A DNA stretch of 64,000 nt from Bdellovibrionales bacterium RIFCSPHIGHO2_01_FULL_40_29. Lineage in GTDB: Bacteria; Bdellovibrionota; Bdellovibrionia; Bdellovibrionales; Bdellovibrionaceae. The notes under the pieces were generated by a model. The model did not search any database, was not told where the DNA came from, and saw only the letters and a list, made by a program, of their open reading frames with translations. The translations under genes were made by a program, and so were the position numbers. Location: positions 62,001-126,000 of the forward strand of contig MEPU01000006.1 in assembly GCA_001771815.1 (NCBI GenBank). Direction: 5' to 3'. Shown in pieces: positions 4,570 to 63,148 of this stretch. The first letter of the stretch is position 1; every line of letters starts with the position of its first letter.

Positions 4570-7161
4570 TTAATGAGCTTCATCCCAATTGTCGCCTATT
4601 GCAAAATTTACCTTAAGCGGAACTTTTAACTTCGCCACATTTTCCATGATTCTTTTGATAACCGGAGCTTGAGTCTGAATATTCTCATGTGAACCTTCAA
4701 AAATAAGTTCATCGTGCACCTGCAACAACATCGTGACACGCTCGCTGCTCAACTTATCTTGAGAAATTTCTATCATTGCCATTTTAACTAAATCGCTTGC
4801 TGTCCCCTGAATTGGCGCATTGATTGCCGCACGTTCTCCAAATTTTTTAAGCATTCCATTCGAAGAATCCAATTCAGGAATATATCTTCGTCTACCAAAC
4901 AAAGTTTCAACATACTTTTGTTCATGAGCCTTCTGTACAGTTGTTTCAATATAATTCTTGATACCAGAAAATTTCGTGAAATAGCGTTCAATAATCTCCG
5001 AAGATTGCTTGCGCGGTATTCCTAATGTTTCCGCCAATCCATAGGCCCCCTGCCCATAGGCAATACCAAAATTAACAGCCTTTGCAATTCTCCGCTGCTC
5101 TTTTGTTACTTGATCAACAGCAACCGAAAAAACTTCAGCAGCTGTTGCCGCATGAATATCCAAGTCATTCTGAAAAGCACTAATTAATCCGGGATCTTCA
5201 GAAATATGAGCCAAGACCCTCAACTCAATCTGCGAATAATCAACAGAAAGTAACTTCATTCCTGGAGCAGCAATAAAGCTTTTGCGTACGCGTTGGCCAC
5301 GCTCTGTTTTTATGGGGATATTCTGAATATTTGGATTCGTACTCGAGAGTCGACCTGTCGTCGTTAACGCCTGATTAAAACTCGTATGAACACGATTACT
5401 CTGATCCACTGCCGCAGGTAATGCATCCACGTAGGTTGATTTCAACTTGGCGAGCTCACGATAATTTATAATTTCTTTCCCGATGGGATGCTCAAGACCT
5501 TCAAGCACATCATTATCAGTCGAATATCCTGTTTTGGTTTTTTTTTGAGCCTCTAGACCCATTTTTTCAAACAGAATAACGCCTAACTGCTTGGGTGAAG
5601 CAATATTAAAACTTTCCCCGGCCAGCTCATAAATTTTAGACTCTTGCACAGCCAGTTCATCTGCAAGCTGCTGAGAATAGGATTTCAACCCATCAATATC
5701 GATCGTGATGCCTTTCAACTCCATTGCAAAAAGAATTGGAATTAATGGTTTTTCTAGACGTTTATAAATAATAAATAACTGCTTCTCTTCGAGTTGTTTC
5801 TGAACAGCATCATTTAAAAGCATACACGTTTCATAAAACTTCACTGGGGTAAGCTCCGCTGGCAACTCTTCATTTAAGAAGAATGAGGCCAACTTCCGGA
5901 TACTTGAACTATCCGCCGCACGAATAACATATGCACCAAGCATCAAGTCCCAGTCGATTTGTGTCTGCAACTGCACCAATTCACTTTGGTTCACTTTAAA
6001 TCCAATTTCATGCCAAACATTTTTCAAATTAAATCCAGACCAATTAGCCCGAGAAAAATCCAGACGACAGTTTGATTTTTCAGTGACATATAACAAATGA
6101 GAAAATCCTAAAGCGATTTTTTCATTCATTTCGAAAATAAAAAATCGTTCTTTTTCATTTATTCTCAGTTGTATTTCCTCTGTATTCCATAGCTTCGGCT
6201 CAATGATTGGAACTAAGCTTGTTTCTTTTTCAATCACTCCTACAACTTCCGCTCCAGAGCTTACTGTTTCTATAATCGTTGTTGCCATTGGAATAGTTGG
6301 TTTTGCTGGAGCATCTAAAATTGATTTCTCAAAAGTTTTAAAATTCAATTCTTGTAAAAAAGCGCGCAACTCATCCCGCTTCATTTCCTTCAACTTGAAA
6401 TCATCAAGTGTTTTATTCAATGGAACATCGCAAACGATCGTTACCAGTTTTTTTGAAAGAAATGCATTTTTTTCTGAGGCGACAAGTTTTTGCTTTATTG
6501 AAGCACTTTCAATTTTATCTAAATTCTTATAAATTCCATCGACCGAACCAAATTGTTCAATCAATTTAATAGCTCCCTTTGGTCCGATACCACCAACTCC
6601 AGGGATATTATCACTGGTATCTCCAGTGATTGCCAAATAATCAAGAAACTGTTCTGGGAAAACACCATGTTTTTCTTTAACCAATTGCGGTGTGAAAACA
6701 ATATCTTTCATCGTATCATAAAGAAATACGTGATCGCTAATAAGTTGGCAAAAATCTTTATCACCACTGACAATATAGGATTCGTAATCTTCTCTTTCAG
6801 CCATTTTTGCAATTGTTCCAATAAGATCATCCGCTTCAAATGTTGGAACTTCTAAATCACAAATTCCAAATAAATTTGCGACTTGTTTAAGATAGGGCAT
6901 TTGAACTTGCAAATCGTCTGGCATGCTGGATCGATTGGCTTTGTATTCTGTGTAGAGATCTTTACGAAAAGAAGGCTCTTTGCGGTCATAACAAAAAACC
7001 ATGTGATCCGGATTTTTATCTTTGATTAACTTGACGATCATAGAGATGAAACCATAGACGGCGTTAACAGGAACGCCCTTGGTTGATGTGAGCGGGCGAA
7101 CAGCATAAAATGCACGAAAGAACATCGAACTCACGTCGATGATATATATTCTTTTTTTCAT
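4570..7161 (-). CDS. polA: DNA polymerase I
   Basis: 863 residues. The N-terminal 5' nuclease (~1-285) shows FFRAFYAV, YKANR, EADDLIGT, SGDKDFCQL and the helix-hairpin-helix region TSDNIPGVGGIGPKGA. The C-terminal family A polymerase domain has motif A DYSQIELRVLAH, motif B RRIAKAVNFGIAYGQGA and motif C LQVHDELIFE. The middle domain, corresponding to the 3'-5' exonuclease, shows no Asp-x-Glu metal-binding pair: the expected strand reads FFIFEMNEKIALGFS. It is therefore probably proofreading-deficient, as in Taq polymerase. Role: Okazaki fragment processing and repair synthesis. A 70-residue ORF lies 9 bp upstream on the same strand. Confidence 0.97.
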   Translation of the reverse strand: MKKRIYIIDVSSMFFRAFYAVRPLTSTKGVPVNAVYGFISMIVKLIKDKNPDHMVFCYDRKEPSFRKDLYTEYKANRSSMPDDLQVQMPYLKQVANLFGICDLEVPTFEADDLIGTIAKMAEREDYESYIVSGDKDFCQLISDHVFLYDTMKDIVFTPQLVKEKHGVFPEQFLDYLAITGDTSDNIPGVGGIGPKGAIKLIEQFGSVDGIYKNLDKIESASIKQKLVASEKNAFLSKKLVTIVCDVPLNKTLDDFKLKEMKRDELRAFLQELNFKTFEKSILDAPAKPTIPMATTIIETVSSGAEVVGVIEKETSLVPIIEPKLWNTEEIQLRINEKERFFIFEMNEKIALGFSHLLYVTEKSNCRLDFSRANWSGFNLKNVWHEIGFKVNQSELVQLQTQIDWDLMLGAYVIRAADSSSIRKLASFFLNEELPAELTPVKFYETCMLLNDAVQKQLEEKQLFIIYKRLEKPLIPILFAMELKGITIDIDGLKSYSQQLADELAVQESKIYELAGESFNIASPKQLGVILFEKMGLEAQKKTKTGYSTDNDVLEGLEHPIGKEIINYRELAKLKSTYVDALPAAVDQSNRVHTSFNQALTTTGRLSSTNPNIQNIPIKTERGQRVRKSFIAAPGMKLLSVDYSQIELRVLAHISEDPGLISAFQNDLDIHAATAAEVFSVAVDQVTKEQRRIAKAVNFGIAYGQGAYGLAETLGIPRKQSSEIIERYFTKFSGIKNYIETTVQKAHEQKYVETLFGRRRYIPELDSSNGMLKKFGERAAINAPIQGTASDLVKMAMIEISQDKLSSERVTMLLQVHDELIFEGSHENIQTQAPVIKRIMENVAKLKVPLKVNFAIGDNWDEAH

Positions 7162-7170
7162 GGGCTGAGA

Positions 7171-7383
7171 CTACTCGTTCGAATGAAATTTGTCGACTTG
7201 ATCTAAAGAATTTAGCTCTAGCCATTTCTCCGCTAAGGCATCTAATTTTATTTCATGTGAGTAATTATCGAGCTGTGCATTTAGAATCTGTATATCAACT
7301 TGCCCAAGTTCAATTCGACGACGTAATTCCTGACGTGATAGACCTAAACAAAGACGAGCATGATTGAATTGATTCATATCCAT
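7171..7383 (-). CDS. Small hypothetical protein upstream of polA
   Basis: A 70-residue ORF ending 9 bp before the polA start on the same strand, which suggests cotranscription. It is charged and predicted helical (LSRQELRRRIELGQVDIQILNAQLDNYS), with no signal peptide or membrane segment. A second in-frame ATG lies two codons in. No clear Shine-Dalgarno is visible for either start. Not recognised. The helical, heptad-like content suggests a short coiled coil. It could be spurious, but its placement and ordinary composition favour a real gene. Confidence 0.45.
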   Translation of the reverse strand: MDMNQFNHARLCLGLSRQELRRRIELGQVDIQILNAQLDNYSHEIKLDALAEKWLELNSLDQVDKFHSNE

Positions 7384-7988: not shown

Positions 7989-8459
7989 GTGGATAAAAAC
8001 CAAGTTCTTCAAACCTTACTGGCCCAACTTCATGAAGACTTTAAAATATTAAAACAAGCCGCCCTAGCTACCTATGAAGACGCCACACATGAAGAAACGA
8101 AACCTGAAAACAAGTACGATACACGCGCCCTCGAAGCCTCCTATCTTGCGGGAGCTCAGGCTCAGCGAGTTTCAGACACATCTGAGCTTATTTTATTTTG
8201 TCAAAATTTACGTATTCGACCCCAAGAAAAAGTCGCTGTTGGCGCTTTAGTGACTGTTGAAACGACTGGAAAAAAGAATTACTTCTTTTTTCTTCCCAAA
8301 GGCGGTGGGATTACAATCCAAGATGGTACTGAACAAATTCAAGTGATGACACCATCAAGCCCTCTTGGAAAAGCCCTACTTGGTCTTTCCCAAGGTGATA
8401 CTGCAGAAATCACTATGTCAGGACAAAAAAAAGTTTACGAAATTCTTGCCGTTATCTAA
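7989..8459 (+). CDS. GreA/GreB-like transcription elongation factor family protein
   Basis: 156 residues from a GTG start at 7989; the overlapping ATG at 7983 is out of frame. The N-terminal half is helical and carries an [16 protein letters not shown] block known from a Gre-related family. The C-terminal half resembles the GreA FKBP-like domain, with [18 protein letters not shown] the clearest match. Family knowledge: Gre factors insert an acidic coiled-coil tip into the RNA polymerase secondary channel. This shorter subfamily is poorly characterised, so cleavage activity is not certain. The 3' end overlaps the convergent eno stop by 8 bp. Confidence 0.7.
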
Positions 8460-9720
8460 ATCCAGCCTTGTCCCAGTAAATTCCCATACCGCCAAGATCT
8501 TCTTCAATTCTCAAAAGCTGATTGTATTTCGCGGTCCGCTCACTACGACACAAGCTACCTGTTTTAATTTGATGACAATTCAATGCAACTGCCAAATCAG
8601 CAATTGTCACATCTTCTGTTTCACCACTTCGATGAGACATTACTGTTCGCATCTTATTTCTCTGCGCCAAGTTCACCGCTTCAAATGTTTCTGTTAAAGT
8701 TCCAATCTGATTCACTTTGACCAAAAGCGCATTCGCTGCTTTCTTCTCGATCCCCATGCGCAAACGCTTTGGATTTGTAACAAATAAGTCATCACCCACA
8801 AGCTGAACATGCTTCCCCATTTCAGCAGTAGCACTGATCCAAGACTCCCAATCGTCTTCTGAAAACCCATCTTCGATACTGACCAATGGATATTTTTGTG
8901 ACCATTTCAAATAGATATTCTGTAACTCAGATCCAGAAATTGTTTGTTTTTCCCAGCGGTACTTCCCGCCCTCGAACATCTCTGTGGCCGCAACATCTAA
9001 AGCTAAAAATACATTCTGACCAGCTTCATAACCGGCTTCTAAAATGGCTTGCATTAATAATTCCAAAGCTTCTTCATTTGACTTTAATACTGGCGCAAAA
9101 CCACCCTCATCACCTACAGCCGTTGATAATCCTTTTTTTCCAAGAATCTTTTTCAAGGTGTGAAAAATTTCTGAACCAGCTCGTAGTGATTCTGAAAAAG
9201 AATTATTCACTGTAGGAACAATCATAAATTCTTGAATATCTAAGCCATTATTCGCATGCGCTCCGCCATTTAAAACATTCATTAATGGCACCGGTAAACG
9301 ACAAGCTTGCGATCCCCCCACATAACGATACAGTGGAAGCCCCGCATCTCGAGCTGCTGCATGCGCACACGCTAGTGACACACCCAAGATCGCATTGGCA
9401 CCCAAGTTCGATTTATTTTCAGATCCATCAATATCTCGTAAAAGTTTATCAATATACACTTGCTCAAAAACATTTAATCCAACCACTTCCGGAGCTAACT
9501 TTTCACGGACATGAGAAATCGCTTTTAAAACACCTTTTCCAAGATATCTTTTTTTGTCGCCATCTCGTAGTTCAAAAGCTTCGTGCGCGCCCGTACTGGC
9601 ACCTGACGGAACAGCGGCACGCCCCATATTTCCATCTGCGGTCTTAACCTCGACCTCCAGCGTTGGATTTCCACGACTATCTAAAATTTCGCGCGCGTGC
9701 AAACTGATAATGTCAGACAT
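8452..9720 (-). CDS. eno: Enolase
   Basis: 422 residues, typical length. Signature segments are visible in order: [57 protein letters not shown] with the metal-binding acids, [25 protein letters not shown] with the catalytic Lys, and the HRSGETED loop. It interconverts 2-phosphoglycerate and phosphoenolpyruvate in the cytoplasm. The start overlaps the stop of the upstream 331-residue gene by 8 bp, implying coupled translation. At the 3' end it overlaps the opposite-strand Gre-like gene by 8 bp. Confidence 0.98.
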
Positions 9721-18093: not shown

Positions 18094-19745
18094 TGGCATC
18101 AACAGACGTAAAACTACCTGAACTCGGCGAGGGCGTTACCGAAGGCGAATTGGTAAAATGGCTTGTTCAACCAGGCGATTCCGTGAAAGCAGATCAAACT
18201 GTTGCTGAAATCATGACGGACAAAGCCACTGTCGAAGTTCCATCACCAGTTGCTGGCGTGGTCAAAGAATTAAAATTTAAACCCGGACAAGTTATCAAAG
18301 TTGAAAATATTATTTTAACTCTAGATGGCGCTTCAACCAATACGACAACAAATGTTGCGGCCACTACTGCACCACCAACTAAATCAGCACCCACTCCAAC
18401 CTCAGCCCCTGCTGTTGCTTCACCAATATCAAATGGAACTAATGGAAAATCTTTAGATGTTAAACTCCCTGAACTTGGCGAGGGTGTTACCGAGGGCGAA
18501 TTGGTAAAATGGCTTGTTCAACCAGGTGATTCCGTGAAAGCAGATCAAACTGTTGCTGAAATTATGACGGACAAAGCCACTGTCGAGGTTCCATCACCAG
18601 TTGCTGGCGTGGTCAAAGAATTAAAATTTAAACCCGGACAAGTTATCAAAGTTGAAAATATTATTTTAACTTTATCGGGCGCTACTGGCTCCGCACCTGC
18701 GCCGCAAGCTTCAGCACACACGGGTGTCACAGCAAATGCACCGACACCCGCTTCTACAAAATCATCACCTACTATGGCTATGGCAACGTCGACGACTGGT
18801 GTTTTTCCTCCGGTTGCAGATTCAAAAGTTTTAGCAACTCCGGCGACTCGCCGTCTGGCGCGCGAACTGGGTGTTGATATCAATGGTATGACCGGTTCGG
18901 GACTTGCTGGTCGAGTCACTCGTGACGATGTCACTCAAGCCAAAAGTGGTTCAGCACATGTATCCCATGGTGCTGGAGCAACCTCGGCTGGTTCCCCAAC
19001 TATGAATTTCCCGAAACCTGCATTCAACTCGACAAATGCATCTTTGGAAGAGCGAGTTGATTTAATCGGAATTCGTAAAAAAATTGCGCAAAATCTGCAG
19101 ATGTCTAAATCAATTATTCCCCATTTTACATTGATGGATGAAGCCGATGTTACGCAATTAGTAACGCTGCGAGAATCACTTAAAGTTTTTGCCGAGAAGA
19201 ACGAAACTAAAATCACGTATCTTCCTTTTGTAATGAAAGCTTTGATTGCGACCATCAAAGAGTATCCACAGTTTAATGCTTCTATTGACGATGCGGCTTC
19301 TCAAATTGTCTATAAAAAGTATTTCAATATTGGCTTTGCAGCCGATACACCAAATGGTTTAGTTGTTCCCGTTATTAAAAACGCAGATCAAAAATCGGTT
19401 TTAGAAATTTCTAAAGAGATTATAGATTTATCAAAGCGTGCTCGCGATGGAAAATTGAAACCTGACGAAATGAAAGGCGCATCCATCACCATCACCAATA
19501 TCGGTTCAGTTGGCGGCACTTATGCAACTCCGATCATCAATCATCCTGAGGTGGCTATTTTAGGAATGTATAAAATCTCGGATAAACCTATTCTTAAAAA
19601 TGGCGCTATTGCATTCATTAAATCAATGAATTACACCGTGACTTGTGATCATCGTTTAATTGACGGCGCGGTTGCAGCCAATTTCTTGAAGTCATTTTTT
19701 CAAAAAATTCAAAACCCAGGAGTTTTGATGATGGGGATGTCATAA
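18093..19745 (+). CDS. 2-oxoacid dehydrogenase E2 (dihydrolipoyl acyltransferase), two lipoyl domains
   Basis: 550 residues. There are two N-terminal lipoyl domains (residues ~5-77 and ~122-194), each with Lys in EIMTDKATVEV, separated by Ala/Thr/Pro-rich linkers. A peripheral subunit-binding domain follows at ~250-285 (ATPATRRLARELGVDINGMT), then the catalytic domain with CDHRLIDGAV (HxxxDG) near residue 518. The two lipoyl domains are identical over 73 residues. The substrate (pyruvate or branched-chain) cannot be decided because no E1 gene is in the window. Overlaps lipA and lpdA by one base each. Confidence 0.93.
   Translation: MASTDVKLPELGEGVTEGELVKWLVQPGDSVKADQTVAEIMTDKATVEVPSPVAGVVKELKFKPGQVIKVENIILTLDGASTNTTTNVAATTAPPTKSAPTPTSAPAVASPISNGTNGKSLDVKLPELGEGVTEGELVKWLVQPGDSVKADQTVAEIMTDKATVEVPSPVAGVVKELKFKPGQVIKVENIILTLSGATGSAPAPQASAHTGVTANAPTPASTKSSPTMAMATSTTGVFPPVADSKVLATPATRRLARELGVDINGMTGSGLAGRVTRDDVTQAKSGSAHVSHGAGATSAGSPTMNFPKPAFNSTNASLEERVDLIGIRKKIAQNLQMSKSIIPHFTLMDEADVTQLVTLRESLKVFAEKNETKITYLPFVMKALIATIKEYPQFNASIDDAASQIVYKKYFNIGFAADTPNGLVVPVIKNADQKSVLEISKEIIDLSKRARDGKLKPDEMKGASITITNIGSVGGTYATPIINHPEVAILGMYKISDKPILKNGAIAFIKSMNYTVTCDHRLIDGAVAANFLKSFFQKIQNPGVLMMGMS
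18105..18323 (+). repeat. Lipoyl-domain repeat, copy 1
   Basis: 219 bp encoding residues 5-77 of the E2 protein. Aligned codon by codon with 18456-18674 it differs at 10 positions, all synonymous, so the two encoded domains are identical. The 3' portion is nearly identical in DNA as well. Confidence 0.95.
18456..18674 (+). repeat. Lipoyl-domain repeat, copy 2
   Basis: Second copy of the 219-bp lipoyl-domain sequence, encoding E2 residues 122-194. The 10 synonymous differences from copy 1 lie mainly in the 5' half. Such a direct repeat could recombine to a one-domain form. Confidence 0.95.
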
Positions 19746-39410: not shown

Positions 39411-39550
39411 GTATTCTTAATTCTGTATTCTTAATTCTGTATTCTGAACTCTGTATTCTGAACTCTGTATTCTGAACTCTGTATTCTGAACTCTGTATTC
39501 TGAACTCTGTATTCTGAACTCTGTATTCTGAACTCTGTATTCTGTATTCT
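39411..39550 (+). repeat. 14-bp tandem repeat array (minisatellite)
   Basis: Seven exact consecutive copies of GTATTCTGAACTCT occupy 39439-39536. They are preceded by two copies of the variant GTATTCTTAATTCT (39411-39438) and followed by two 7-bp half-units GTATTCT (39537-39550). The unit is itself two related 7-mers. Upstream partial matches extend to about 39380. The array lies in the 283-bp gap between the transposase and the hydrolase gene. Confidence 0.97.
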
Positions 39551-39575
39551 GTATTCTGAATTCAGAATACAGAAT
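39546..39575. repeat. 30-bp perfect palindrome
   Basis: The 15 bases 39546-39560 are the exact reverse complement of 39561-39575, with no spacer; the centre is GAATTC. The left arm is built from the tandem-repeat unit, and the right arm is complementary to it, so it can also pair with any upstream repeat copy. It lies between the converging transposase and hydrolase genes and could act as a terminator or as transposase substrate. Confidence 0.95.
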
Positions 39576-59157: not shown

Positions 59158-59242
59158 GCCCAGTTGGTGGAATCGGCAGACACACTAGGCTTAGAACCTA
59201 GCGCCGCGAGGCATGGGGGTTCGACTCCCTCACTGGGCACCA
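59158..59242 (+). tRNA. tRNA-Leu (anticodon UAG)
   Basis: 85 nt including an encoded CCA. The acceptor arm GCCCAGT pairs with ACTGGGC; the D arm has GGTGGAATCGGCAGACAC; the anticodon loop CTTAGAA gives TAG (reads CUA, and CUN by wobble). A long class II variable arm (CGCCGCGAGGCA) and the TTCGACT T loop confirm Leu. It stands at the left edge of an accessory-looking stretch. Confidence 0.96.
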
Positions 59243-59260
59243 TTTTTATCTAAATCTCTT

Positions 59261-59740
59261 ATGATAATAAATTATCGGTCTGCAAATATTTCTGATCTTG
59301 AGCAACTTGTGCAGTTACGCATTCTTATGCAACTTGAAGTTAATGGGTTATCCAAAGATAAAGTCACAGACGACTATGTTCAAAAAGTTAGAACATACTT
59401 TCAAAATACCATTGAGACTAAAAAATATTTTAGCGCTATTGCTACTGATGGAGATAAAATTGTAGGAACAGCGGGAGTTTGCTTTTATGAAAAGCCTCCA
59501 AGCATTTCTACGGGATCAGGACTAGTCGGCTATGTAACAAATGTTTACACCCTGCCATTTTATCGTAAAAAAGGCGTTGGCACGACTCTTATGCGAAAGC
59601 TTAACCAAATAGCTAGTGAATTAAATGCACACAAACTTCATTTAGGTGCTACTTTAGATGGGCTTAGTATTTACAAAGCTGTCGGATACGAAGAGCCCCG
59701 CTTTGTAAATTTAGAAATTAAATTAGTTACCCCAATTTAA
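59261..59740 (+). CDS. GNAT-family N-acetyltransferase
   Basis: 159 residues from ATG 59261, 18 nt after the tRNA CCA. An earlier frame would overlap the tRNA. No Shine-Dalgarno is visible. GNAT motifs: strand and loop VTNVYTLPFYRKKGVGTTLM (acetyl-CoA binding R/QxxGxG/A as RKKGVGT) and LHLGATLDGLSIYKAVGYEE at the C-terminus. Substrate unknown. It converges on the two-gene module with 3 bp between stops; its last codons fall within the 41-bp direct repeat. Confidence 0.83.
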   Translation: MIINYRSANISDLEQLVQLRILMQLEVNGLSKDKVTDDYVQKVRTYFQNTIETKKYFSAIATDGDKIVGTAGVCFYEKPPSISTGSGLVGYVTNVYTLPFYRKKGVGTTLMRKLNQIASELNAHKLHLGATLDGLSIYKAVGYEEPRFVNLEIKLVTPI

Positions 59741-59778
59741 ATCCTAAACAATTTCTCTGTCGACCAGACCTTCAATAA
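59738..59778. repeat. 41-bp direct repeat, left copy
   Basis: Identical over 41 bp to 60972-61012; the preceding 7 bases also match with a one-base difference in T number. This copy covers the stop of the GNAT gene and the last ~11 codons and stop of the RHH-like gene. The two copies enclose 1.2 kb containing the whole two-gene module. Confidence 0.95.
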
Positions 59779-60283
59779 TTGCAGCATCACTTAGTCCACT
59801 TTTCTTTTTAAGAAGTTCAATCTTACGGATAGTTTGTGGAGTCAGCCGAAATGTCTTCATTAATTTTTTATTATCCAAGGTTTTTGTACGTCGATCGTTT
59901 AAAGAAATATTCATCCATACTTTTATTTTTTTATAAGGCATATTTAGAAAATCACTTCCGTTCTCTTTTTCTTCACGCAAATCAATGAGAACTTGTTTTA
60001 GAAGTAGTTCTTCCTTTGTATTGTCATGATTAAATGCTTTTGGTAATCGAAGCACGGCTGCTGGCAACACTTCCAAAATGCGGGGTTCTACATTTTGGCC
60101 AGCCCAGATAAGATCTTTTACCCAAACTCGAGCTTGAAAATACGGTTCAAAGTTTATATTTGTTTTAAGAAATCCTTTTTTCACTAAAAAAGCCATAGCT
60201 TTTTTGTAACGAATATCCTTTCGTTTTTTATCATCCAGCAAGGCTGCTTTTTTAATTTGCTCAATCAAGTTCTTGTTATTCAT
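59744..60283 (-). CDS. Protein with C-terminal ribbon-helix-helix-like domain, possible antitoxin
   Basis: 179 residues, second gene of a leftward pair; AGGATAAG precedes the ATG. The last 40 residues (MKTFRLTPQTIRKIELLKKK then SGLSDAAIIEGLVDREI) have the strand-helix-helix spacing of RHH DNA-binding proteins. The N-terminal part is helical and basic and unassigned. It starts 8 bp after the stop of the upstream partner. An antitoxin or repressor role is inferred from layout and RHH resemblance. Its last codons are repeated upstream of the module. Confidence 0.55.
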   Translation of the reverse strand: MNNKNLIEQIKKAALLDDKKRKDIRYKKAMAFLVKKGFLKTNINFEPYFQARVWVKDLIWAGQNVEPRILEVLPAAVLRLPKAFNHDNTKEELLLKQVLIDLREEKENGSDFLNMPYKKIKVWMNISLNDRRTKTLDNKKLMKTFRLTPQTIRKIELLKKKSGLSDAAIIEGLVDREIV

Positions 60284-60291
60284 ATCTTATC

Positions 60292-60786
60292 CTATATAAA
60301 TTTTCTTAATTCCCCGCCCGCAGCCACTATTCTTGAAATTAAATTGGGATACTCTTCTGATGCTATGGCTTGTCTGATAAGTTGAATATTCTTTTCAGGC
60401 GCCTTTACCGCTTTACTGACAAGCGCTGATTCTGGATCAATAACCACAACTTCAATCATGGTTAAATTTAAAAAAGTAGAAAAATGACTTCCTTCTGGAA
60501 TAAATATCAAATAGCTATCTTCGTCATATATAAAACCATAATCGGGTAGAATTTCTTTTAAATTCTTTTTAACAAAGTGGTCCGCCAGAAGTTGCGCATC
60601 CAAATCGCCTGTTTGAGCTAAAGTTAATTTAACAGTTAGCTCGGGCTGAATAAGCAGACTTGTTTGCCCCAGGATTTCAATCCGAGCGTGAGGAATAAAA
60701 CGCGCTCCACTTAAACGACGCCGCTTATTCTCATTTTCAACCTGCTTATTAAGTTTTGTGAATACCTCTACAAGTTTATCTTTCAT
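60292..60786 (-). CDS. Possible nucleotidyltransferase-like (DUF6036/AbiEii-like) protein of a two-gene module
   Basis: 164 residues with AGGAGC upstream. After a charged helix and LSGARFIPHARIEILG, the segment AQTGDLDAQLL recalls the Thr-x-Asp-x-Asp metal motif of minimal nucleotidyltransferases. Later VVVIDPESALVSKAVKAPEK recalls the 'DPedLialKl' helix of the same fold. The usual Gly-Ser motif is not seen. Paired with an RHH-like protein, it fits a toxin-antitoxin or abortive-infection type module, but the match is weak and rests on eye only. Confidence 0.5.
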   Translation of the reverse strand: MKDKLVEVFTKLNKQVENENKRRRLSGARFIPHARIEILGQTSLLIQPELTVKLTLAQTGDLDAQLLADHFVKKNLKEILPDYGFIYDEDSYLIFIPEGSHFSTFLNLTMIEVVVIDPESALVSKAVKAPEKNIQLIRQAIASEEYPNLISRIVAAGGELRKFI

Positions 60787-60900
60787 TATAGCTCCTGATT
60801 ATATTATCGGCTATTTTAATAGTAATGTAAATACACTATATTTCTTTGTAATATCAAATAGTTGTATGATATATCGCTTCAAACCGAATTGCGAACTTCG

Positions 60901-60941
60901 AAGAAATCTTGAGGTCACAATTTGTGACCTCAAGATTTCTT
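60901..60941. repeat. 41-bp near-perfect palindrome (20-bp arms)
   Basis: The 20 bases from 60901 (AAGAAATCTTGAGGTCACAA) are the exact reverse complement of 60922-60941, with a single central T. It lies 115 bp upstream of the first gene of the two-gene module, in the 275-bp gap that also carries the right direct repeat. No T run follows on either side, so it is better read as an operator or cruciform than a terminator. Confidence 0.95.
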
Positions 60942-60971
60942 AATAATTTCAATTACTTAAGATGTCCCAAT

Positions 60972-61012
60972 TAAATCCTAAACAATTTCTCTGTCGACCA
61001 GACCTTCAATAA
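60972..61012. repeat. 41-bp direct repeat, right copy
   Basis: Exact copy of 59738-59778. On the minus strand it still reads IEGLVDREIV and a stop, that is, an isolated C-terminal tail of the RHH-like gene with no gene in front. It looks like the remnant of a second module copy or of a target-site duplication. Confidence 0.95.
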
Positions 61013-61061
61013 AATGTTTTTACAGGCCGATCGAATATAAGTGGTACTTTGTTGAAATCGG

Positions 61062-61874
61062 TCACTTTGATAAGTTTTTTTGTTGTTCACTAAGAAATAG
61101 ACTTACCTTTTCACACGCTTGATAAGTTCCATCTGTCTGTATTTTTTGACAAATTACAGACCAAACATTAGAGTAAATATCATGAACAGCTAAAGTATCA
61201 TCTATTACTTTAAATTTAAGAGTTTTAATTTTTCCCTCACGAATAATTTTCGCATCTTGTAGACCTAGTGGCAGACTATCTTTGACTTTAAAATAAGTTA
61301 ACAGATCAGGAATGCGTGTCTTACCAAGACTTAAAATAACATCAGATTTTTTAAAAATACTATCTTTGATGTTCACATCATCGATGATAAGTACGCCGCC
61401 TGTCATATCTTTAGTAACCGGATTTACAAGCTCTCGAGAGGCTTCCTCAATTTTATCAGGAACCCCTATACTGCGAAAATTAGCACCGCATGTATACATC
61501 GTAACAAACAACGGAGTCATTTCTGCGACTGGATAAGAATTCGTGTGCACAACAGGAGTTTGCCCTATCATACTTGTAGTTGAATAGGATTGATATGATG
61601 TTTGAGTAGAGCTTAAATCCTTTGTCATGGTTACAAGAGCATATTGTTTTTTTTCAGCACAATCCTCAAACGCACCGAGCATTGAATATCGTCGTGCAGC
61701 TTCTTTAGAGGTCATAGTATTTCCTCTAAAAACACTTAGATTAGAATCATTTTCTTTAGAAATCTCCAAACCAAATCCATACTGATTCATTGTCTTATAT
61801 TGAATATCCGTTGCACAAGAAAAAGTAGATGCAAGTATTGCTACAATCACGATTTTGATTACAATTTTTTCCAT
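61062..61874 (-). CDS. Lipoprotein with PDZ-like C-terminal domain
   Basis: 270 residues with a lipoprotein signal (VAILASTFSC). The N-terminal part (YGFGLEISKENDSNLSVFRG; TSKEAARRYSMLGAFEDCAE) resembles small envelope lipoproteins of the 'YS..GF' type. The C-terminal TGGVLIIDDVNIKDSIFKKS, DVILSLGKTRI and IIREGKIKTLKFKV are laid out like a PDZ domain. A serine-rich loop lies between. Probably an envelope scaffold or sensor; no protease domain is present. Not recognised as a named family. Confidence 0.62.
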   Translation of the reverse strand: MEKIVIKIVIVAILASTFSCATDIQYKTMNQYGFGLEISKENDSNLSVFRGNTMTSKEAARRYSMLGAFEDCAEKKQYALVTMTKDLSSTQTSYQSYSTTSMIGQTPVVHTNSYPVAEMTPLFVTMYTCGANFRSIGVPDKIEEASRELVNPVTKDMTGGVLIIDDVNIKDSIFKKSDVILSLGKTRIPDLLTYFKVKDSLPLGLQDAKIIREGKIKTLKFKVIDDTLAVHDIYSNVWSVICQKIQTDGTYQACEKVSLFLSEQQKNLSK

Positions 61875-61994
61875 AGCCGATGACTATACTCGATACTATA
61901 GTAATTCATGAAATATTATTTTTTTGATAGGCATTTTATTATGCTCGTCGGGCAGAAAACTAATCTTGAGATTGCAAATTGCAACATCAGTGAA

Positions 61995-62366
61995 TTATTT
62001 ACAATCTGAATCGATTTTTTGATACTCACGAGAAGCAGCAATCATTGCTGACATTTCCTCTTCAACTTTTATATTTGGAAATTTAACATACCCCGAGTCG
62101 TCAGCATCAGGATGATCTGGCAGATATTTAGTAACGTAATTTGCAAGGGCAACAATTTTACAGTTTTTATTTTCACAATGAATTTCTTTTTTTCGATACG
62201 CACCACCCTCAGGAGTTCTGGTGGCACTTATATTCTCTATATTTGATGAAATGGCATTCATCTCTAATCGTTTATTGCTTAACATATCCTGACATTCGCT
62301 TTTATCAATTTTTGCCGCAAATGAAATGGAAGAAACCAAAAGCATAGAATAAATAATGAACTTCAT
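61995..62366 (-). CDS. Small secreted protein, unknown
   Basis: 123 residues with GGAGG upstream and a signal peptide (MKFIIYSMLLVSSISFAA). The mature part has four Cys (SECQDML; IHCENKNCKIV; SDCK at the end), consistent with two disulfides. No family recognised. It lies between the PDZ-like lipoprotein and the divergent zinc-ribbon membrane protein in the stretch between the two tRNA-Leu genes. Confidence 0.6.
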   Translation of the reverse strand: MKFIIYSMLLVSSISFAAKIDKSECQDMLSNKRLEMNAISSNIENISATRTPEGGAYRKKEIHCENKNCKIVALANYVTKYLPDHPDADDSGYVKFPNIKVEEEMSAMIAASREYQKIDSDCK

Positions 62367-62611
62367 AAACGACCTCCACTTTATTATACTTTGAATTTAT
62401 AGAAAAGAACTGGATTAACGCCTAGAATGTGGTCTCAATTTAGAGGTTAGGCTATTTGAGATATTAGAATATCAGTTCGCACAGTTAAAAACCTTTTTCA
62501 GATACGATAATAAAGTTCGGGGCACTCCATCAAAATTTACAAAATAGAATATTAACATTGTTGCAGATCGATTTTCGTAGAATGCTGTTCGTGTTCTTAG
62601 GAGTTGTTAAA

Positions 62612-62974
62612 ATGAGTTGGATTCTTCAAACTAATGATTATAAGCAGAGCTTTTTTTCTCATGATGAAAACCGCTGTTCATTAAAACAAAGAACTCTTTC
62701 TGCTCTAAAGAAGGTTTTACTTTTTTGGATTTTTGCAATTGCTAGTATTGTTGTTCCATTATTGCATTTTATTTTAGTTCCAGGTTTTTTAATCGGTGGA
62801 GTTATTGCGTTTCGATTGCATATGCGAAATACCCATTATCTTGATAACGTCCAATTTCTTTGCCCCAATTGTGGTAAAGGAAATACTCAGAAAAAGTTTT
62901 ACTTTTTTTCAGGAAAACGCATCAGATGTTCGCACTGCTCTCATCAAGCCAGTATTATTGCCACTGCAAGTTAA
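62612..62974 (+). CDS. Small membrane protein with C-terminal zinc ribbon
   Basis: 120 residues from ATG 62612 with AGGAG 8 nt upstream; the frame extends further upstream but without a good start. Two adjacent membrane helices (KKVLLFWIFAIASIVVPLLH and FILVPGFLIGGVIAF) are followed by a zinc ribbon: CPNCGKGN and, 16 residues on, CSHCSHQ. Such proteins may sense or bind DNA/RNA or metal at the membrane; no function is known. It is in the accessory stretch near tRNA-Leu. Confidence 0.6.
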   Translation: MSWILQTNDYKQSFFSHDENRCSLKQRTLSALKKVLLFWIFAIASIVVPLLHFILVPGFLIGGVIAFRLHMRNTHYLDNVQFLCPNCGKGNTQKKFYFFSGKRIRCSHCSHQASIIATAS

Positions 62975-63063
62975 AGCCAAATCCTGCCTGCTTTCCATTG
63001 CGAATCTATCAATAATTACTTTGTCAAAATCTTATAGATTTGCTTTAATTTAACACGGCATCC

Positions 63064-63148
63064 GCGCGGGTGGTGGAATTGGTAGACACGCAGGTCTCAG
63101 AAGCCTGTGTCGAAAGATGTAGGGGTTCAAGTCCCCTCTCGCGCACCA
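63064..63148 (+). tRNA. tRNA-Leu (anticodon CAG)
   Basis: 85 nt with encoded CCA. The acceptor GCGCGGG pairs with CTCGCGC including one G-T pair; the D arm has GGTGGAATTGGTAGACAC; the anticodon loop CTCAGAA gives CAG (reads CUG). The variable arm is long (class II) and the T loop is TTCAAGT. It bounds the accessory-looking stretch on the right. Confidence 0.96.

Follow-up and report, generated by a model that had tools for sequence, protein, structure and literature searches.

We found that two small leftward genes in a Bdellovibrio-like bacterium, one for a minimal nucleotidyltransferase (NT) and the other for a protein with an RHH domain, look like an undescribed toxin-antitoxin system. In our judgement the pair is probably a toxin-antitoxin operon that spreads horizontally, across distant lineages, as a stand-alone unit of ~1.1 kb, whose second protein represses its own synthesis and whose right-hand flanking repeat is the leftover of a gene end. 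Of the features of type II toxin-antitoxin systems, a compact operon, a DNA-binding partner and a conserved upstream motif are present. The initial annotation of this DNA had proposed an undescribed toxin-antitoxin or defence pair, and the toxin-antitoxin proposal gained support from the operator motif and the asymmetric gene loss, from which we infer toxicity.

Layout of the locus

The window, that is, the whole 64-kb stretch of DNA that was analysed, contains the two leftward genes 8 bp apart (59744-60283 and 60292-60786), just as first annotated. The annotation had also placed them between exact 41-bp repeats; exact direct repeats do enclose the pair, and their length is 42 bp, not 41 bp. 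The features of the locus are as follows.

59158..59242, plus strand: tRNA-Leu (TAG), left border of the variable region (ARAGORN)
59261..59740, plus strand: GNAT acetyltransferase gene (Pfam Acetyltransf_1, E=7e-12, on ORF 59213-59740)
59737..59778, unstranded: direct repeat, left copy, 42 bp exact, containing the RHH gene 3' end
59744-60283, minus strand: RHH gene, predicted antitoxin, 179 aa (alignment A3, AlphaFold2, RHH_1, CopG/Arc-type matches)
60292-60786, minus strand: NT gene, predicted toxin, 164 aa, minimal nucleotidyltransferase (alignment A4, hhalign to DUF6036, AlphaFold2)
60827..60834, unstranded: GTAAATAC (GTATTTAC on the coding strand), predicted operator with the GTAnnTAC motif, ~40 bp ahead of the NT start
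60901..60941, unstranded: perfect 41-nt palindrome with 20-bp arms and a 1-nt loop, between the promoter and the right repeat
60971..61012, unstranded: direct repeat, right copy, 42 bp, geneless, putative remnant of an RHH gene 3' end
63064..63148, plus strand: tRNA-Leu (CAG), right border of the variable region (ARAGORN)

The start of the GNAT acetyltransferase gene was put at 59261 because the earlier ATG falls inside tRNA-Leu (TAG); this gene is the convergent neighbour of the RHH gene and lies outside the module. The G+C content of the pair is 35%, among the lowest 5% of the 1-kb stretches of the window. The palindrome at 60901-60941 is the longest perfect hairpin of the window, and no T-run follows it. 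An imperfect palindrome related to it lies 1 kb off, at 61962-61989.

The variable region between the two tRNA-Leu genes spans 59243-63063. In the genus of the window genome, tRNA-Leu (TAG) comes after gcvH. The two tRNA-Leu genes are 50 bp (L074) and 60 bp (L075) apart at two loci, a third has a 5.4-kb gap between them filled by other genes (L076), and at a fourth an integrase gene begins 48 bp downstream of the equivalent tRNA-Leu (TAG) (L071). Based on these arrangements, the window pair is part of the accessory cargo in a genus-level hotspot whose cargo differs by species. The 3.8-kb region around the pair is absent or different in the genus, where no relative shows the pre-insertion state. 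Close to gcvH in genome G078, we also noticed a nucleotidyltransferase gene of the DUF6036 family preceded by a small ORF (L154, 1462-2723); sites of this kind may thus be open to another NT gene.

The two proteins and their relation to known systems

The 41 members of the NT family (alignment A4) have in common the invariant residues G40 Q41, T59, D61, D63, D88 and S124 K125, with the motifs GQ, T-x-D-x-D and SK. The nucleotidyltransferase-like character first suggested for this protein was borne out by profile-profile comparison, in which the NT profile matched DUF6036 with an hhalign probability of 93.6 (E=2e-7, 125 columns), against 0.1 for an unrelated control pair (alignments A3/A5). The alignment set GG of DUF6036, from proteins of the same phylum, over GQ, and DhD over DhD. 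The AlphaFold2 model of the NT had a mean pLDDT of 95. Profile and structure searches had both been recommended: the former gave the DUF6036 match, and the latter, a Foldseek search of the NT model against PDB, gave nothing significant, with terminal uridylyltransferases at ranks 1 and 7 and E above 0.3. A PDB sequence search with the NT profile likewise returned nothing significant. As the first reading had implied in naming no family, Pfam, NCBIfam and PADLOC held no family above cut-off for either window protein.

In the downstream protein, the N-terminal part is all-helical and contains the invariant motif EPR..E.LP, and the C-terminal part is an RHH domain; the AlphaFold2 model of this protein had a mean pLDDT of 93. 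Its RHH-like nature, also noted earlier, held up: Pfam RHH_1 was matched by 12 of the 52 members (best E=2.6e-6), and Foldseek on the RHH part matched CopG, Arc and VapB, with a probability of 0.87 for CopG but E above 1. A PDB sequence search with the protein profile gave a weak NikA match only (E=0.02). The protein resembles CopG, VapB and NikA-type RHH proteins in its C-terminal RHH DNA-binding domain, and differs from them in the helical domain fused to it. This domain of ~130 residues, the best conserved part of the family, is new, belonging to no known family. A Pfam match to ParcG (E=7e-4) occurred in one member only and was judged spurious.

By its sequence, the NT is nearer to DUF6036 than to the DUF1814 toxins. 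The DUF6036 (PF19502) pairs of Bdellovibrionota likewise join a small NT with G-x, T-x-D-h-D and K motifs to an adjoining putative partner gene, often HTH. They differ from the present pair in that our NT family falls below the Pfam cut-off (2 of 41 members match, best E=0.018) and in that the partners come from other families; when the RHH protein was compared with the DUF6036 partners, no similarity was detectable. In the open-access literature we found no description of DUF6036 pairs as toxin-antitoxin systems. Two DUF6036 genes occur elsewhere in the genome of the window. In the DUF6036 two-gene units of Bdellovibrionota (L132-L149) the partners fall into at least two families, of which one has an HTH at the N terminus and neither is clearly in Pfam; these units may be further toxin-antitoxin families.

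We then compared the pair with AbiE/MenAT. In these two-gene operons an antitoxin restrains a nucleotidyltransferase toxin of the DUF1814 type, which carries DhD and lysine motifs (PMC3985639, PMC10435456). A DNA-binding, autorepressing antitoxin is common to AbiE and, by prediction, to our pair. Motif I of AbiEii/MenT, hG[G/S], of which the first G alone is essential in AbiEii (PMC3985639), corresponds here to invariant G40 followed by invariant Q41. Motif II (DhD) is present, with T59, D61 and D63 invariant in the 41 members, and so is the motif III lysine, with S124-K125 invariant, whereas motif IV (+DxxD) is absent and the corresponding stretch reads KNxxL, with N133 invariant. AbiE/MenAT has a COG5340 winged-helix antitoxin, although MenA antitoxins vary (PMC10435456); the partner here is of the RHH or HTH_3 type, the RHH domain being combined with an unrelated helical domain. 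In addition, the predicted toxin gene comes before its partner in our pair, unlike in AbiE/MenAT. The AbiEii model of PADLOC matched 1 of the 41 members (E=0.0056) and not the window protein. Since it lacks motif IV, departs from motif I at the second residue and has a different type of antitoxin, the pair is not a member of AbiE/MenAT, but it is predicted to work like it.

As for earlier descriptions, the nucleotidyltransferase pair named in a comprehensive survey of two-gene toxin-antitoxin systems is MNT-HEPN, and no NT-RHH pair came up when the survey was searched by term (PMC2701414); an earlier description elsewhere is possible. Our search of the open-access literature found no description of nucleotidyltransferase toxin-antitoxin systems in Bdellovibrio.

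Operator, autoregulation and the roles of the two genes

To characterize the upstream region, we counted the motif GTAnnTAC, typically TGTATTTACA or GTATATAC, within 120 bp upstream of the NT start. It was present in 26 of 43 members versus 2 of 276 other genes of the same loci (Fisher p about 1e-24), and in Markov-resampled upstream regions the mean count was 1.5 and the maximum 6, compared with 26/43. Two members, L128 and L130, have HTH_3 in place of the C-terminal RHH domain. They are without GTAnnTAC and share the palindrome TATTATAC-N6-GTATAATA; its only two copies in 642 kb lie immediately ahead of the L128 and L130 NT genes. DNA-binding domain and operator have thus switched jointly, and this joint change supports the role of the second protein as repressor of the operon. 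Because the tree places L128 and L130 as sisters, the switch counts as one event.

A toxin gene should not outlive its antitoxin. Among the 369 genomes searched, all 24 intact NT genes adjoin an RHH gene, whereas 10 of 34 intact RHH genes are without an intact NT gene; in 4 of these the NT gene is missing and in 6 it is truncated or frameshifted, a class that assembly errors in bins may inflate. The loss is asymmetric (Fisher p 0.002-0.004), and from it we infer that the NT would be the toxin and the RHH protein the antitoxin.

We also considered the reverse assignment, in which the NT is an antitoxin that modifies its partner as MntA does HepT, and the helical-RHH protein is the toxin. Minimal nucleotidyltransferases do serve as antitoxins in HEPN/MNT systems (PMC7641770), and these too are two-gene modules with a minimal nucleotidyltransferase. 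We nevertheless regard such a reversal as highly improbable: the partner here is not HEPN, with no HEPN family match in any partner; it bears a DNA-binding domain typical of antitoxins, swapped between RHH and HTH; and the losses run one way (10/34 against 0/24), which points to the NT as toxin. It also seems quite unlikely that the two are ordinary regulatory or metabolic genes. In favour of that reading, the NT lacks motif IV of DUF1814 and its toxic role is deduced, but the patchy mobile distribution, the signature of autoregulation and the asymmetric gene loss all speak against it.

If the pair is a toxin-antitoxin operon, we predict that the small NT would arrest growth by attaching a nucleotide to some target in the cell, the likeliest one, by analogy with MenT, being tRNA 3' ends. 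The helical N-terminal domain of the RHH protein would bind and silence the NT, and its C-terminal RHH domain would bind the GTAnnTAC operator and repress its own operon. The promoter and two genes (~1.05-1.25 kb) have entered many unrelated sites as a unit, and direct repeats would be left by the insertion or by later duplication. Loss of the module would free the toxin, which could help to keep the direct repeats from collapsing.

Distribution, mobility and flanking repeats

A profile search of 84,980 GTDB species genomes found 51 loci, and one further copy was found in a provirus-like contig (L131). The initial annotation had recommended looking for the pair in other bdellovibrios, and these 51 loci, constant in gene order, answer that call. 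They fall in Bdellovibrionota, Myxococcota and Desulfobacterota/Dadabacteria, and in single bins labelled Streptomyces and Lysobacteraceae; the latter two labels are probably wrong, because the matching contigs (G032:C5, G181:C2) fall in the window's own family and phylum. Wherever both genes were found (~50 non-redundant loci), the two genes share a strand and the NT gene immediately precedes the RHH gene; their stop and start codons often overlap. The RHH protein had a match in 38 of the 369 genomes of the phylum, from 33 genera, and in 1 of the 14 genomes of the window's genus, namely the window genome itself. Phyla are mixed in the RHH protein tree, with 12 changes of phylum label against the least possible 4, which suggests horizontal transfer, the taxon labels of bins being rough. 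Because most of the genomes are metagenome bins, misassembly could account for some of the broken NT genes and some of the repeats.

In the same tree the window protein stands beside that of the provirus-like contig (70% identity). One may ask whether the pair is kept mainly as anti-phage (abortive infection) cargo of prophages or islands, an idea that is compatible with the toxin-antitoxin explanation and concerns retention only. This closest relative, L131, adjoins an integrase, L061 adjoins an integrase and an excisionase-like gene, the window locus has its tRNA in common with the L071 integrase island, and AbiE, of related architecture, confers phage resistance (PMC3985639). However, most copies stand alone among housekeeping genes and without defence genes, the window pair had no PADLOC match, and no match to the pair was found in the plasmid and phage collections searched. 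On balance, we consider retention mainly as anti-phage cargo somewhat less likely than not.

DNA similarity between copies mostly ends at the pair and its promoter. It amounts to 96.8% over 1114 bp for L110/L115, 91% over 1060 bp for L112/L113, 86-87% over about 1040 bp for L118/L121 and L118/L122, and 79% over 1102 bp for L087/L088. Exceptions are L087/L090/L092, which have neighbouring genes in common, and L121/L123, which are the same region. The nearest neighbours are varied and mostly housekeeping genes, with no family more than 3 times among 93 and 82 neighbours in two batches. We found no recombinase of the module's own and no recognisable ends, the moving DNA being the two genes only (attC-like ends were judged by eye, in one case). 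In the genus of G153/G197, an 84-bp intergenic element (L110 1706-1789, L115 4352-4435, L159 1501-1579) occurs once per genome, before the module in one genome, after it in another and without it in a third; it seems to travel with the module. An interpretation of this element at L110 and L115 as an integron cassette was unsupported on inspection by eye.

Direct repeats within 400 bp flank 6 of 51 modules versus 5 of 1808 random intervals on the same contigs (binomial p about 7e-9), and a separate BLAST version with 1.5-kb flanks gave 8/56 versus 3/113. Counted per control locus instead of per interval, the enrichment is not significant, with 1 test per module and ~35 per control locus. Most modules have no detectable flanking repeat, and the repeats vary in sequence and length from site to site. 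At L068 the repeat is a whole tRNA-Ala (74 bp, 99%), at L069 the promoter and 5' end of an acyl-CoA dehydrogenase gene (185 bp, 88%), and at L118 and L106 unnamed DNA; the RHH gene end is repeated in the window and, more weakly, in L125. Two cases were set aside as examples: the L097 repeats, which resemble dispersed terminator stems (this locus is still among the 6/51), and the L061 repeats, which lie partly in the integrase gene.

The L069 module has empty sites in G188 (same genus) and G146 (same family), where the flanking genes are joined and one repeat copy is present. Therefore, the module and the extra repeat copy at L069 arose by insertion. The single copy that had been expected in relatives without the pair was thus found, for the same module, at this locus. 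For the tRNA-Ala of L068, a search for an empty site found no close relative. At this locus (7096-7183, 8389-8693) the tRNA-Ala (CGC) gene is duplicated, and an 11-bp segment from the tRNA start recurs beyond each copy, as if dispersed repeats had inserted there.

The window repeat is 42 bp long when exact, or ~48 bp if one 1-base indel is allowed, and is present only twice in the whole genome. If a tandem array (39.4 kb) and a pair of repeats (18 kb) are set aside, no exact repeat in the window is longer. The array (39436-39575) is made of a 14-bp unit (TCTGTATTCTGAAC) with a 30-bp perfect palindrome at its end; the diverged direct repeats at 18144-18671, 351 bp apart, are perhaps duplicated lipoyl domains. 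Since flanking repeats occur in 0.3% of same-size random intervals on related contigs, the 42-bp repeat is not due to chance. An exact search of viral contigs with 25 of its bases found nothing.

As first annotated, the left copy includes the final codons and the stop codon of the RHH gene, and no gene adjoins the right copy. Within the gene, the repeat matches the L131 orthologue at 71% identity, compared with 72% for the remaining gene, and identity falls to 34% past the stop codon; therefore, the repeat derives from the gene and the right copy is a remnant of an RHH gene end. Both copies might otherwise be target-site duplications of a single insertion, in line with the host DNA repeats that flank the module elsewhere (the tRNA-Ala of L068, the gene 5' end of L069) and the one-copy empty sites of the L069 insertion. 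We think this unlikely for the window, because a duplicated target would be host DNA, whereas the window repeat is homologous to the RHH gene itself up to its stop codon. Judged from this one 42-bp remnant, the most economical account is that the module was once doubled in tandem and that one copy was later deleted down to its last 42 bp; template switching that copied the RHH gene end to the other side would have the same appearance. The initial annotation had offered insertion with duplication or deletion of a tandem copy, and the former now has a case at L069, while the latter is the simplest reading of the window remnant.

It seems improbable to us that the bare pair moves on its own without a recombinase, duplicating tens to nearly two hundred target bases by an undescribed mechanism in which its proteins are perhaps involved. 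With the bare modules flanked by repeats, and with their empty sites in relatives, the transposase-free movement of solitary toxin-antitoxin pairs becomes open to testing, and the paired change of DNA-binding domain and operator amounts to a natural experiment on antitoxin evolution.
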